Source of the DNA: Heterotrichella gracilis
Lineage: Eukaryota; Sar; Xanthophyceae; Tribonematales; Xanthonemataceae
Assembly (NCBI GenBank): GCA_032358255.1
Contig: JAULBX010000892.1
Location: forward strand, 1 to 64,000
Length of the DNA: 64,000 nt
Direction of reading: 5' to 3'
Part shown: positions 6,341 through 64,000 of the stretch, piece after piece
How positions within the stretch are numbered: the stretch's first letter is position 1
How the letters are laid out: every line of letters starts with the position of its first letter
The notes under the pieces: model-generated
Databases searched by the model: none
What the model saw: only the letters and a program-made list of their open reading frames with translations
Told to the model about the DNA's origin: nothing
Translations under genes and position numbers: made by a program

Positions 6341-9025
6341 ATTGCCGCCACTGCCGTTTCTGCAAGTGTTCCTCCGTCGTGCAGGTTGCACCCCCCTGCC
6401 ATTCACTGGACTACCTGGTCAGGCATGCGCGGCTGACAACCATCGCCCAGGCGCTCATGTGCCAGGTAACAATGTAGTGGATAGGAGTGCACAATGCCAT
6501 TTTGGGACACGCATGTGGCTGTGGCTGTGGCTGTTGAATGCTTTTAAAGCATAGAAATAAGAGCTGTCCAGAGAGTTTTCTGGGGCCCCAAGCCATGCCT
6601 GTTGTGAGCCAGGTGGCGCGTCCGGGTGACACCGTGGTGGATGCGACCTGTGGCAATAACTTATAACGACATTTAAAACCATTAAATCAATTATAATTAC
6701 TGTTTAAATGGTGCCAGATGGCGCGCCCTGGCGACTCCATGATGGATGCGACATGTGGCAACAGCCATGACATTTAAAACCATAGTATATTTGTGTGAAT
6801 GTTGTGTGCCAGGTGGCTCGCCCTGGTGACACCGTGGTGGATGCGACCTGTGGCAACGGCCATGACACCACCCACCTGGCGCGTCTGGTGGGGCCTAAAG
6901 GGGTGGTGTATGCATTCGACATCCAGGTAGGGGAGGGCAGAATCGATGGGGCAGACTTGTGTAACTCGGGTAAACCCTTTGTAAACCCTCTAGGTAAATC
7001 CAGGCATATATGTAATGTGCTCTGCACGTTTGCTTTTAGAGGCTGATATCAGATACAGGATGAGTTCAGCTTGCCGAAACTAATAATCCCATGCATGCCT
7101 AATGCCACCATTTTGCAAATAAATAAATAAATATATACGCAACCTGTCCTTGAACAGGCGCGTTGGTTAAGGAAGAGGACTGAGCGAAGAAAAGGGCAGT
7201 GCCCTTCTGTCCACTGTTTTCCCCACCATTTTGCATCAGTATGCGTCCTGGGGCCCTGGAAGCGCACATCCGCAGAGTAATCTGTGGGATGAAACTTGCT
7301 GCGGGGGACCCCCGTCACTGTCGCTCCATGATGTGCTCTACACCTGGGCCACGCAGTGTGGATGAGGTGGTACTATACATGCAAGTGCATTAGTGAGAAT
7401 CTGATCATTGATTTTGATCATTGATTTGATCATATGATGCCACAGGAGCGTGCCCTAGCCTCCACGAGAGCTGCCATCGAGCGCCAGCTGGAGCCCCCCG
7501 CCCGCCCACATGTGCACTACATTCAGGACTGCCACTCAAAAATGCAGGTGCGATGGCTTGCCAAAATGCATTAAATATAGTTTATTTATTTAGTTTCAAA
7601 GATTTTGAATCCAAAAAATTGCATTTATTTTGCAGCTCCTATTCATCAATAACGAGTCTGTTGAACAATGGTCTGGCATTGCTAGTCAGCTTTACCCTTA
7701 GGCTTTTGCGCGTCGGTCCCCCAAATTTGTTGTGTTCAGGTCAGGGCTAACCTGACCATCATTCCCCCATCTGCACTATTTGCATGCATGAAAAGTACCG
7801 TACCACCTTGCAGGAGCATGTGGGTAGCCAGGCGGCCAATCTGGTGTGCTTCAACCTTGGGTATTTGCCCGGGAGTGACCGGAGCGTCATCTCCCAGCCT
7901 GGCACCACTGTTGCTGCTGTGGAAGCGGCCATGGAGGTGGTGGTGCCTGGCGGCCTGATCAACATACTGGCATACACATCGCATGAAGGTAGGTGGGAAG
8001 GGTAAATTCAGGGAACACCATACTGCCCAGCATCTCGCACGATGGTAGGAGAACCAAAAGAATACATGATGTGTATTTTCTTTCCATTTACTATAGGCAT
8101 GGAGGTGGTTCTGCCTGGTGGCCTAGGTCAACATGCGCGAGGGTAGGTAATGCTGCTTCTGCAAGGGGGGCTAGTTGGTTCACTATTTTCATAAAGGGGG
8201 TGCCGCCCGGCTCCAACCCCTGGCGGGTCATCGAGCTGGCACTGTGTGCAAAGTCAGGGGTATACTAATAATACTAACTGTTGGTATATACTATGTAGTT
8301 AGTATACCCCTGGCAAAGTCCATTGACATTACAAGATAAAGGAAAACAAAAATGCGCAGTGTGCAGGGGGGCATGAGGAGTACAGTGCTGTGCAGCAGCT
8401 GTTTGCCGCGCTGTCGCCCACTAACGCAACAACTGCAGAATACAAAGTAAATTAACAACCACAGGATGGGAATAATTACCTCAGTGTGCACCCATCTGCA
8501 AGGGGGGCATGAAGAGCATGACTGCCGTGTGGTGATAACCTCCTGTGATACCCCACCTACTGTGTGCAGGGGGCCATGAGGAGTACAGCGATGTGCAGGC
8601 GCTGATTGCTGAAATGGGACCAAATCCAATGAACCATGGCAAAATACCACAAGAAAGCCATTGGCCAAATGAAATAAAATGGTAAACTCGAATACCATGA
8701 GTTCAAACTATTAGTTCTTTTTTAATCAAGCGCTGTGTGCAGGGGGCCATGAGGAGTACATTGCTGTGCAGCAGCTGGTTGCCGAGCTGTCCCCACACTA
8801 CTAGCTCCACCCCACAAGGCATGCATCCTGTGCAGAGTCAACGGGGATGCATGAAATGGGAAAGATATGCGCATTTTTGCAGGGGGCCATGAGGAGTACA
8901 TTGCTGTGCAGCAGCTGATTTCCGCGCTGTCCCCGCACTACTGGGTCAGCTCAGAGGTGCGCCTGCTCAACCGCCCCAAGGCGCCGCTCATGCTCATGCT
9001 GTGGAGGCGCCCGCAGGAGGAGTGA
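6337..9025 (+). CDS. YtqB-like SAM-dependent methyltransferase (rRNA methylase-like family)
   Basis: Exons are 6337-6465, 6813-6926, 7446-7547, 7814-7988 and 8883-9025, totalling 220 residues in phase. The protein belongs to the Rossmann-fold family of bacterial YtqB and its plant plastid homologues, which are SAM-dependent methylases. Exon 2 carries the SAM motif [12 protein letters not shown] (near residues 50-61), followed by VYAFDIQ, the acidic strand-2 position. Exon 3 has DCHSKM. Exon 4 has FNLGYLPG and then PGG. Exon 5 has LLNRP near the C-terminus. The first exon supplies the conserved N-terminal helix ([10 protein letters not shown]). The ATG at 6337 is the nearest in frame after the CAC tract; a start further upstream is possible. 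The substrate is not fixed by sequence. The gene is packed with decayed copies of its own exon edges. Confidence 0.88.
6601..6800 (+). repeat. Two echo copies of methyltransferase exon 2 start
   Basis: 6601-6658 and 6711-6771 repeat the end of intron 1 and the start of exon 2 (real copy 6801-6862). By eye the first differs at 4 of its first 56 bases and the second at 8 of 62. Both keep an AG at or near the acceptor position, and both are followed by a GACATTTAAAACCAT-type sequence. This marks two tandem units of about 110 and 90 bp. The first loses the frame soon after the motif; the second is interrupted downstream. Confidence 0.9.
8017..8149 (+). repeat. Echo copies of methyltransferase exon 4 end
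   Basis: 8017-8052 is a weak copy of the end of exon 4 with its donor. 8097-8149 is a clearer copy of about 50 bp beginning at the ATGGAGGTGGT segment and again ending in GGTAGGT. Both lie in intron 4, downstream of the true donor at 7989. Confidence 0.75.
8256..8312. mobile_element. Tiny inverted-repeat element with 8-bp flanking direct repeat
   Basis: Arms of 13 bp, AGGGGTATACTAA at 8256-8268 and its exact complement at 8299-8311, enclose a 30-base loop. The 8-mer GCAAAGTC occurs immediately outside both ends (8248-8255 and 8313-8320). This is the layout of a MITE with a target-site duplication, although 57 bp is very short. It sits in methyltransferase intron 4. A plain hairpin with chance flanks remains possible. 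Confidence 0.5.
8364..8804 (+). repeat. Four echo copies of methyltransferase exon 5 start
   Basis: Copies at about 8364-8426, 8479-8521, 8566-8617 and 8738-8804 repeat the acceptor and first part of exon 5 (real start 8883). All carry the GGG(C)CATGA(G/A)GAG signature after GCAGG or a close variant. Three also keep the GTGCAG segment that follows. The last copy is the closest and ends in CACTACTAG, a stop where the true exon reads on with CACTACTGG. Spacing is irregular and the identical stretches differ between copies, so several separate events are likely. Confidence 0.85.
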
Positions 9026-9177
9026 GCATAATGGAAGGAACTGTTTGTCACCGCACGGCAAATAGCAGGGTTTGGATACGCAGCCTGTCCATGAATGGGC
9101 CAGTTCAAGGCCGGTGCGCTGGTCAATTCTGGGAGGGTGCAGCATCAGCGGGGGGATCTCAAGGATTCCACCTCTGG

Positions 9178-62600: not shown

Positions 62601-62681
62601 TGCATGGGAGAGAGCATAGCCTTGGCTTGCAACAAGATAGTCAAGGATCACGGTGGGTGTGTGGGAGGAAACTCAGCCCTG

Positions 62682-64000
62682 TTAGCTACCCCCCTCCCCT
62701 GCCATCCCCTCCACCGGTTCTGAGCTCTCATACACCGCCACGTAGGGCTCGTACACGCGGTCCTCGATTTGCTGCACTATGGCCTGGAACAGGGGGCCTT
62801 CCACCTGCTCCCGCTGCCTGCTCTTGAGCTGCAGCTGCAGGTTGCTGTCTGTAGGGTGCGGGTGGTGCACCACGTAGGCGCTGGGGTGCACCTGCAAGGG
62901 TGTGAACCGGCATTCAGGGTTCAGGGTTTAGGGTGTGGTCGGTGGGGTGCAGGTGGTCACCACGTAGGCGCTGGGGTGCACTAGAGGGAGCAGAAACGGC
63001 TTTAGGGTTTAAGGTGCAGGGTTTGGGGGTTGCAGGTGGTGCACCACATAGGCACTGGGGTGCAACTGCGTTGAGGAGAACCTCTTTTTAGGGCTGAACC
63101 CGAATGCATGTCCAATGCAAACCCTAAACCCTACCGCTTGTGAACCACACCTAAACGCCAGCTGCTGCTGCACCGCAGGCTGAACACAAACCCTAAACCC
63201 TACTGCGTGCCCCACACAAACCCCAAACCCTGATGCATGTCAACCACACCTAAACGCCAGCTGCTGCTGCGCCGCCCGGCTGACCACATGCACCGCTCAA
63301 TACCCCACCCAGCCACACTGCCTTCACTTTTAATCTACACAAGCTTGTAAAGCTGCTGCTGCACCGCCAGGCTGACCACAAACCCTAAACCCTCCTGCGT
63401 GCCCCAAAGCAAACCCTAATCCCTAATGAACGTGAACCACACCTTGAACGTCAGCTTCTGCTGCACCGCAGGCTGAACACAAACCCTAAACCCTACTGCG
63501 TGCCCCACACAAACCCTAGACCCTACCGCATGTCAACCACACCTTGAACATCAGCTGCTGCTGCGCCGCCCGGCTGACCACATGCACCGCTCAATACCCC
63601 ACCCAGCCACACTGCCTTCACTTTTAATCTACACAAGCTTGTAAAGCCGCTGCTGCACCGCCAGGCTGACCACAAACCCTAAACCCTCCTGCGTGCCCCA
63701 AAGCAAACCCTAAACCCTAATGAACGTGAACCACACCTTCAACGCCAGCTGCTGCTGCACCGCCAGGCTGAACACAAACCCTAAACCCTCCTGCGTGCCC
63801 CACACAAACCCTACACCCTAATGAACGTGAACCACACCTTGAACGTCAGCTGCTGCTGCACCGCCAGGCTGAACACATGCACCACCCGATGCACAATCCA
63901 GCCCCGGATGCGCTCGTCGAAGCGGGGCAGCGCGCTGCGCAGGCCCATGAAGAAGGGCTCGTACTGCACAAGGAAAGACATTGTTTAGGGTTTGGGTCTT
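62682..64000 (-). CDS. LARGE-type (GT49) glycosyltransferase, C-terminal part
   Basis: Two minus-strand exons are visible: 63963-63838 and 62891-62682. The 5' part lies outside the window. The first reads YEPFFMGLRSALPRFDERIR, then GWIVHRVVHVFSLAVQQQLT and FK; the second begins VHPSAYVVHHPHPTDSNLQL. This matches the end of the GT49 domain of LARGE/B4GAT1-type enzymes: a YEP(Y/F) block, P-x-(F/Y)-D-x-R, a V-x-H-x-x-x-L helix, then a P-x-A-(Y/F)-x-x-H-x-PH(A/P) block. Such enzymes add xylose or glucuronic acid to glycans in the Golgi; donor and acceptor cannot be told here. The last ~40 residues include a second YEPYVAVYE and end in an acidic Gly-rich tail. The intron between the exons is almost wholly made of exon-edge echoes. 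Confidence 0.65.
62943..63076 (-). repeat. Two echoes of GT49 last exon start
   Basis: 62949-62985 (CAGGTGGTCACCACGTAGGC then GCTGGGGTGCACTAG) and 63031-63070 (CAGGTGGTGCACCACATAGG then CACTGGGGTGCAACTG) repeat the last exon start (62862-62897). GGGTTTAGGGT and TTTAGGGTTTAAGG lie beside them at 62924-62935 and 63001-63014. Confidence 0.92.
63100..63830 (-). repeat. Array of seven GT49 donor-edge echoes with a 293-bp higher-order repeat
   Basis: The real exon end (GCTGCTGCTGCACCGCCAGG on the plus strand, 63849-63868) recurs near 63741, 63649, 63552, 63453, 63355, 63257 and 63158. Most copies carry CACACCT(T)(G/A)AACG(T/C)CAGC as a degenerate donor side. Copies are separated by AAACCCTAAACCCT(A/C)CTGCGTGCCCCA-like spacers (two CCCTAAA units). 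A block containing GCTCAATACCCCACCCAGCC then ACACTGCCTTCACTTTTAAT recurs 293 bp apart (63294 and 63587). Confidence 0.93.

Follow-up and report, generated by a model that had tools for sequence, protein, structure and literature searches.

Local duplication by break repair is already known, and it frames the comparison made here with the echoes, short and decayed copies of exon edges, of a 64-kb window (G000:C11:1-64000, the whole stretch of DNA analysed) in a 68.5-Mb, 903-contig eukaryotic assembly whose genes are spliced. Echoes stand in direct, near-tandem geometry to the exon and in register with its edge, decay neutrally, bear splice sites of a working type mostly unlike the one the exon uses, and are set off from it by spacers with telomere-type repeats. 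They are read here, with rather less than even confidence, as relics of near-tandem duplications across exon edges, made through error-prone break repair from a diverged version of the gene. The AGGT model deals with intron gain by tandem duplication; AGGT-type intron gain was considered and set aside, as by eye the copies of exon ends examined do not abut the next exon, nor do those of exon starts open the intron (in the CCT chaperonin locus L026, for example, the echo ends at 1977 and the exon starts at 2413). The potato RdRp case, in the available part of PMC4974935, has in common with the window a tandem exon duplication and duplicated splice sites, but here the copy lies within an existing intron, and no intron is created at a new position. 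In the sections available, Pace et al. 2009 (PMC2671141) treat repair-mediated local duplications in vertebrates, human among them, and discuss the 'doublets' of Thomas et al.; partial exon/intron donors made up only 4 of the 824 there, copies lay 1.2 kb away on average, and one duplicated exon stood in inverted orientation. Short local copies, ascribed there to synthesis-dependent break repair, are common to both systems, and those duplicated exons that were tested there were unconstrained. In contrast to what those sections describe, the echoes here are mostly direct, lie ≤241 bp away for 39 of 42 edges and are in register with exon edges. With the small tandem duplications linked to Pol alpha-primase/CST (PMC8355091) they share the tandem duplication of break-end sequence, but the spacer here is mostly not duplicated, and exon-edge register goes unmentioned in the available part of that source. 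According to the accessible part of PMC7215372, insertions of telomeric repeats mark break repair in mammals (horse and human), the target being duplicated in some cases; the spacers here likewise hold telomere-type repeats together with other sequence. To the authors of that work the placement of the insertions seems random, whereas here the heptamers lie in spacers beside exon-edge copies and are the commonest intron 7-mers. In the hypervariable genome of Schizophyllum commune recombination is confined to locally similar regions, a precedent for the similarity-limited recombination proposed here, but stranded exon edges are not described in the part of PMC4209137 at hand. Searches of the open-access literature found no account of splice-site- or stop-codon-registered echoes at such density.

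Self-comparison covered the window, 18 of 20 random 10-kb stretches and eight CCT loci, the last located by Pfam PF00118 and thus picked by family and not by eye. Exons come from prediction and not from transcripts: the gene finder was trained first on the CCT exons that Pfam had located and next on what it had itself predicted, and it recovered nearly all exons of its own training loci. Coding minisatellites (below 4.3 kb and at ~49.4-50.05 kb of the window) and low-complexity matches were removed before counting, and the array beyond 62.8 kb did not enter the tests by permutation, codon position and flank. Within the window a strict self-BLAST, with pairs <1.5 kb, gave 108 direct and 2 inverted pairs, the permissive setting 92 and 15, and shuffling the window (five dinucleotide-chain and five local-block versions) left 0 direct pairs in each of 10, so that the echoes are real, direct and local as the preliminary description had it. 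At the strict setting 82 direct pairs are left once the two coding minisatellites are taken out, and the strict set for all 27 loci comprises 152 direct and 19 inverted pairs. Echoes were found for 26 of 106 confident splice edges in the window and for one stop-codon edge, amounting to at least 35 distinct copies (a lower bound) and not the 70-80 counted earlier. They are spread over 11 predicted genes, as claimed, though out of 14 with at least two confident exons and not 13. Elsewhere 13 of 250 splice edges are echoed in the random stretches, in 6 of the 18, and 8 of 90 in the CCT loci, in 4 of the 8. The window is unusually rich in echoes and the pattern is not confined to it; 'pervasive' is a fair word inside the window, but not for the uneven distribution outside it.

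Placement of the echoes follows a simple rule, already stated in the preliminary description: start copies lie before their exon and end copies after it, and in all 54 registered rows the echo is on the side facing the echoed edge; for a tandem-type duplication, geometry forces such placement. None of the 54 rows reaches only the far edge of the exon, and with 0 of 54 on the wrong side a spaced capture of exon pieces at random sites was rejected; the tandem-type geometry is firm. The matched block in edge-registered pairs has a median of 60 bp and a range of 25-136 (usually 25-120 bp in the preliminary description). Of 42 edges, 39 have their nearest registered echo 86-241 bp off, at 86-140 for 15 of them and at 159-241 for the other 24; the remaining three have it 356-442 bp off, and two of these (exons 56048 and 58275) also have a nearer full tandem copy. 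All 42 nearest offsets, at 86-442 bp, thus fall inside the 5 kb between donor and copy used as the mark of repair-mediated duplication. Identities span 76-98%, and although the copies are undated it is plausible that the duplication process continues.

Register with exon edges was assessed by rigidly shifting pairs to random places in predicted genes in 300 permutations, restricted to pairs of at least 25 bp that lie in predicted multi-exon genes no more than 600 bp apart; a pair was counted as edge-registered when its alignment end lay −12 to +20 nt from the edge facing the other copy. Registered pairs numbered 43 of 91 against 8.0 expected, with a maximum of 17 over the 300 runs, and so local duplication does favour exon edges. 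Full-length tandem copies show the same preference for edges (8 of 11 against 2.5 expected). Pairs confined to introns fell short of expectation (18 observed, 27.2 expected); several of them match one echo with another or include predicted exons of low score. It might be that random local duplications merely seem bound to edges, their exon half decaying more slowly, since the exon side is constrained and pairs bearing exon sequence stay visible for longer. But restricting the count to pairs of 90% identity or more leaves the excess just as strong (20 of 34 against 2.9 expected) and therefore detectability alone is no explanation; further, three echo-echo pairs of one array (rows 8354, 8359 and 8560), in which neither copy is constrained, also stop 8-13 nt past the edge. 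An origin in detectability alone is accordingly considered very unlikely.

Differences within 75 aligned pairs fall on the three codon positions as 103/1372, 100/1377 and 225/1373, or 1:1:2.2, from which it follows that the echo is neutral and the exon constrained, in agreement with the purifying selection on the true exon proposed earlier. Silent and replacement changes number 214 each. Of 49 indels 46 shift the frame, yet these are carried within the aligned blocks by 25 of the 75 pairs, so that the counts do not establish that most copies have lost the frame. A division of the pairs into constrained and neutral classes was not significant (P=0.20, 68 of the 75 pairs). A coding function of the echoes, or a duplicated exon keeping its constraint, was rejected on the codon pattern together with the frame-shifting indels. 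The splice sites that echoes carry are good, of a working type and mostly unlike the present site of the exon: of 23 acceptors 21 retain AG, of 23 donors 19 retain GT, and the 21 echo acceptors with AG have a pyrimidine content of 0.67 at −20 to −6 compared with 0.50 at matched YAG sites (P=4e-6) and 0.72 at real acceptors. Simulated decay places the loss of function ~0.07-0.29 substitutions per site ago for acceptors and 0.02-0.20 for donors, and both ranges take in the 0.074 estimated from codon positions one and two. Splice sites of near working quality could suggest alternative exons, decoy splice sites or pieces of cDNA. Such functional or RNA-mediated origins seem highly improbable given that the echoes are without coding constraint, that their exon-interior ends have by eye no splice signal save one GT, and that the echo of the stop codon has no splice site at all. 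A cDNA origin specifically was rejected, the echoes not running into the neighbouring exon in the rows examined, with a partial exception at 31099-31270.

Where the copies stop is the more telling part of the pattern. In most registered copies the intron contributes just ~0-17 nt, in effect the core of the splice site; of the earlier claim that copies span an edge and some adjoining intron, the edge register stands and the free straddling is unsupported. On the exon side identity remains at 0.85-0.94 in all distance bins up to the edge, with no taper. Past the edge, gapped alignment of the flanks over positions 4-100 gives an identity of 0.54-0.79, where mismatched pairs give 0.54-0.61, the widest excesses being at positions 11-15 before starts (0.79 against 0.61), 4-6 after ends (0.73 against 0.56) and 46-60 after ends (0.65 against 0.55). 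Copies ~90% identical as far as the exon edge, with flanks beyond it slightly above unrelated splice sites, are a new observation. The copies usually stop at a splice site and once at a stop codon, and this points to a limit of sequence constraint rather than to a process that cuts junctions as such; in particular, since the echo of the terminal exon 31898-32041 stops at the TAG, the limit is the end of constrained sequence and not the splice site itself. Neutral decay of a fully copied block was rejected for most registered pairs, several copies of 95-98% identity losing clear similarity within a few bases of the edge, although mean flank similarity is above the null. The raised mean is due to a minority of pairs, the aligned arrays have weak homology in their flanks, and perhaps about one third of the set has homologous flanks and the rest none. 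The whole unit including its flank is repeated in the 11 full-length tandem pairs, 8 of them across edges, and not in the 43 edge-registered spaced pairs. In 10 pairs with clearly homologous flanks there are 57 differences in 569 positions of the exon part and 117 in 1050 of the intron part, an ordinary substitution clock by which introns are not simply faster in substitutions, while gaps per base are ten times denser in the intron part. A second, relaxed set of alignments, two of which overlap themselves, does not enter these figures.

These flanks are where gene conversion must be weighed. Plain local tandem duplication might occur throughout genes, the intron parts diverging while exon-to-echo conversion refreshes the exon part, in which case the sharp limit would be the reach of purifying selection on the donor exon. 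Flank similarity is indeed graded, from the 10 clearly homologous pairs through the 12 of 37 spacers that are partly so to the rest, which are not; block identity and flank similarity seem, read by eye, to be decoupled; the tenfold gap density looks as if the exon part had been refreshed; and limits at acceptor, donor and stop codon would all have one cause. Yet identity does not taper towards the edge, full tandem copies prefer edges too, and conversion between 60-bp repeats is not directly shown. The echo splice sites also look too intact for old flanks, though the ranges from simulated decay are compatible with it. On balance conversion is a serious but unlikely account of the echoes.

Spacers between exon and echo were considered as a possible mobile element. 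Two of 38 were searched against the whole genome and both are unique, so that a repeat family of introner or transposon type is unsupported, as the preliminary description had also held; spacer-spacer matches are short and mostly telomere-like or simple. TTTAGGG is the plant and green-algal telomere type. Rotations of TTTAGGG/CCCTAAA include the three commonest 7-mers of 119 introns, occurring 330 times where a first-order chain predicts 34.6, at 8.7 per kb compared with 0.63 per kb in exons. End spacers carry heptamers in 11 of 20 cases against 3.9 expected from the flanks of unechoed edges (0 of 3000 resamplings). The heptamers of start spacers are nearly all on the CCCTAAA strand (19.7 against 0.5 per kb) and those of end spacers on both, and over the 26 loci outside the window heptamer density correlates with pair density (rho 0.53, P=0.005). 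Palindromic 7-mers of GCATGC/ATGCATG type are also among the commonest intron words, at 24-29 occurrences each in the window and the 26 other loci, and the right end of the window (63094-63903) is an array of 294-bp units, ~90% alike and rich in CCCTAAA-type heptamers. A staggered break, one of its two nicks falling on the exon edge (such as the border of an R-loop or G-quadruplex), followed by fill-in and joining with filler DNA, could give the block as overhang and the spacer as filler, partly made by telomerase. The enrichment of telomere-type repeats in spacers would suit this, as would the uniqueness of the two spacers searched, the lack of correlation between block and spacer lengths (r=−0.19, P=0.25) and a case in horse, described in the part of PMC7215372 available, where telomeric sequence inserted at a staggered break is flanked by a duplication. 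Filler would leave unexplained the good acceptor before real exons, and a nick at exon edges the stop codon as a limit, and the staggered break is held to be improbable.

Two unlike introns at one exon edge are also the expected look of haplotype mixing, and with an assembly in 903 contigs fragments of a second haplotype or strain may have been set beside the first. Working alleles would not be expected to differ by 214 replacement against 214 silent changes and frame-shifting indels, and some edges have three or more echoes; there is no N in the 20 random stretches and a 2-kb piece of the window occurs once in the assembly. Such an artefact is thus thought quite improbable. A mixture of two species was rejected, the reported matches between CCT loci being ≤34% identical, as for eight different subunits.

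The reading favoured here, break repair from a diverged gene version, is drawn from one haploid assembly and would run as follows. Duplications mostly of 86-241 bp from copy to copy, straddling the exon edge, would arise at exon borders when a DNA break falls within the exon; repair synthesis would proceed outward past the exon edge for up to ~200 bases, and end joining would then connect the synthesized end with the opposite side of the break. The copy that remained attached to the rest of the exon would stay in use, and the displaced edge, ~25-110 bp of exon with its formerly working splice site, would be stranded in the intron to decay neutrally. The match would end at the limit of constraint if the two joined gene versions were alike only there. 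After plain tandem duplication the spacer should recur behind the echo, which in most registered pairs it does not; either the source intron was diverged or the exon part was re-copied later, and both would be forms of exon-anchored repair. The second intron version may accordingly have come from a homologous chromosome with very different introns, or from an older duplication.

A number of observations weigh against this reading. Allelic introns so unlike as to be unalignable should be accompanied by strong synonymous divergence, but third-position differences total only 0.164. Local scores over 70 nt of flank are 10.9 against 7.8 in mismatched pairs for starts (n=22) and 11.1 against 8.3 for ends (n=25), with 0 of 2000 resamplings, and a likeness to the far flank is seen in 12 of 37 spacers; from these it follows that part of the set is plain tandem duplication. 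The array at 58328 differs more in its exon part (5/58) than in its intron part (2/224). Direct pairs predominate less strongly outside the window, at 70 direct and at least 17 inverted. By count the heptamer enrichment of start spacers is weak (6 of 18 against 3.1, P=0.08; by density P=0.009), and an intron base composition related to splicing could be a partial cause of the enrichment.

Turning to individual cases, the start of exon 8883..9025 (plus strand), which lies downstream of an exon matching rRNA_methylase PF06962 and is itself without family, is echoed three times on the same strand, at 8738..8802 (echo 1, 94% identical, with 5 nt of acceptor), 8565..8607 (echo 2, 88%) and 8362..8423 (echo 3, 90%). 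Also on the plus strand, the start of exon 29643-29820 recurs at 29445..29521 (88%), and the end of exon 30787-31031, which has a weak TPR match, at 31099..31197 (87%, ending in GTGGGTT). Adjoining the latter is an echo of the first part of exon 31382-31539 (31203..31270, 82%), an exon with its end echoed at 31657..31726 (81%). Taken together, 31099-31270 consists of an end echo, ~15 nt (GTGGGTTCAGGCTAG, a GT..AG remnant) and the start echo of the next exon, and resembles a miniature exon-intron-exon copy. Further along the same strand are echoes of the coding end of exon 31898-32041 (32208..32274, 93%, the last matched bases being the TAG stop codon), of the end of the PEPCK exon 35349-35576 (35626..35666, 93%), where the PF01293 match ends at 35576, of the start (48009..48045, 89%) and end (48648..48696, 90%) of exon 48194-48588, and of the start of exon 50746-50945 (50521..50583, 84%, with a second at 50334-50405).

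Minus-strand echoes include that of the end of exon 10993-11106 at 10810..10889 (86%, with a second at 10620-10682). The TspO/MBR exon 18545..18680, matching Pfam PF03073 at its cut-off, has an echo on either side, of its end at 18412..18459 (82%) and of its start, with an acceptor of its own, at 18807..18868 (94%). Exon 21809-21931 has its end echoed at 21580..21681 (81%) and a full tandem copy across its start at 22001..22164 (84%, homologous flanks). The end of exon 26468-26634 is found again at 26326..26419 (85%), and exon 40959-41149 has echoes of both end (40764..40869, 84%) and start (41291..41339, 86%). For the dynamin-like GTPase exon 41867-42122 (PF00350) the start is echoed first at 42225..42337 (90%) and further at 42425-42480 and 42553-42611, and for exon 55165-55294 at 55373..55416 (95%, with its own polypyrimidine tract). 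In the malonyl-CoA decarboxylase (MCD) gene, three exons of which match Pfam MCD, a tandem copy across the end of exon 56048-56244 (PF05292) lies at 55680..55947 (84%), its core (55687-55761) being 95% identical to that exon end, and the start of the same exon is echoed at 56354..56443 (87%). A recent tandem array with a 221-bp unit runs across the start of exon 58275-58385 (58549..58830), and its likeness to 58328-58609, at 98%, bears out the nearly identical decarboxylase case reported before. The end of exon 59732-59845 is echoed at 59520..59596 (91%).

As to the genes themselves, Pfam backs exons of PEPCK, CCT, the rRNA methylase, TspO, the dynamin-like GTPase, MCD and a protein kinase; of 20 window exons scanned against it 11 matched no family (E up to 0.01) and another two gave matches below cut-off only. 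Two stretches were excluded from exon work, L002 on contig C1 with 33% GC and L003 on contig C2, which is unclear, and each gave 0 direct pairs. On contig C1, possibly bacterial, there is also a PEPCK with an unbroken reading frame that Pfam matches strongly (L022, G000:C1:81544-85932), whereas the PEPCK of the window is spliced. For the CCT genes L025 (C902) and L026 (C395) several intron-separated exons are reported together with open frames of 946 and 798 codons. At 2445-4229 of the window are three predicted exons ~720 bp apart, each with an array of ~114-bp units, the repeats being asparagine-rich in the open frame 2355-2813, and an in-frame 18/54-bp minisatellite with repeats of NANHSF type lies within a long predicted exon at 49553-49861. 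Tandem duplication seems to be tolerated within exons when in frame.

A wider proposal, for now tentative and held to be doubtful, is a ratchet of intron growth in this lineage: gene copies with unlike introns would recombine, anchored at the exon, and add blocks of ~90-240 bp at exon borders, each swapping in a different working splice site and stranding the retired edge in the intron. If echoes are what they are taken to be, introns would lengthen and splice sites would be replaced while the protein stays unchanged, and every echo would be a datable record of one event. If the ratchet is true as well, introns would be stratified archives of retired exon edges.

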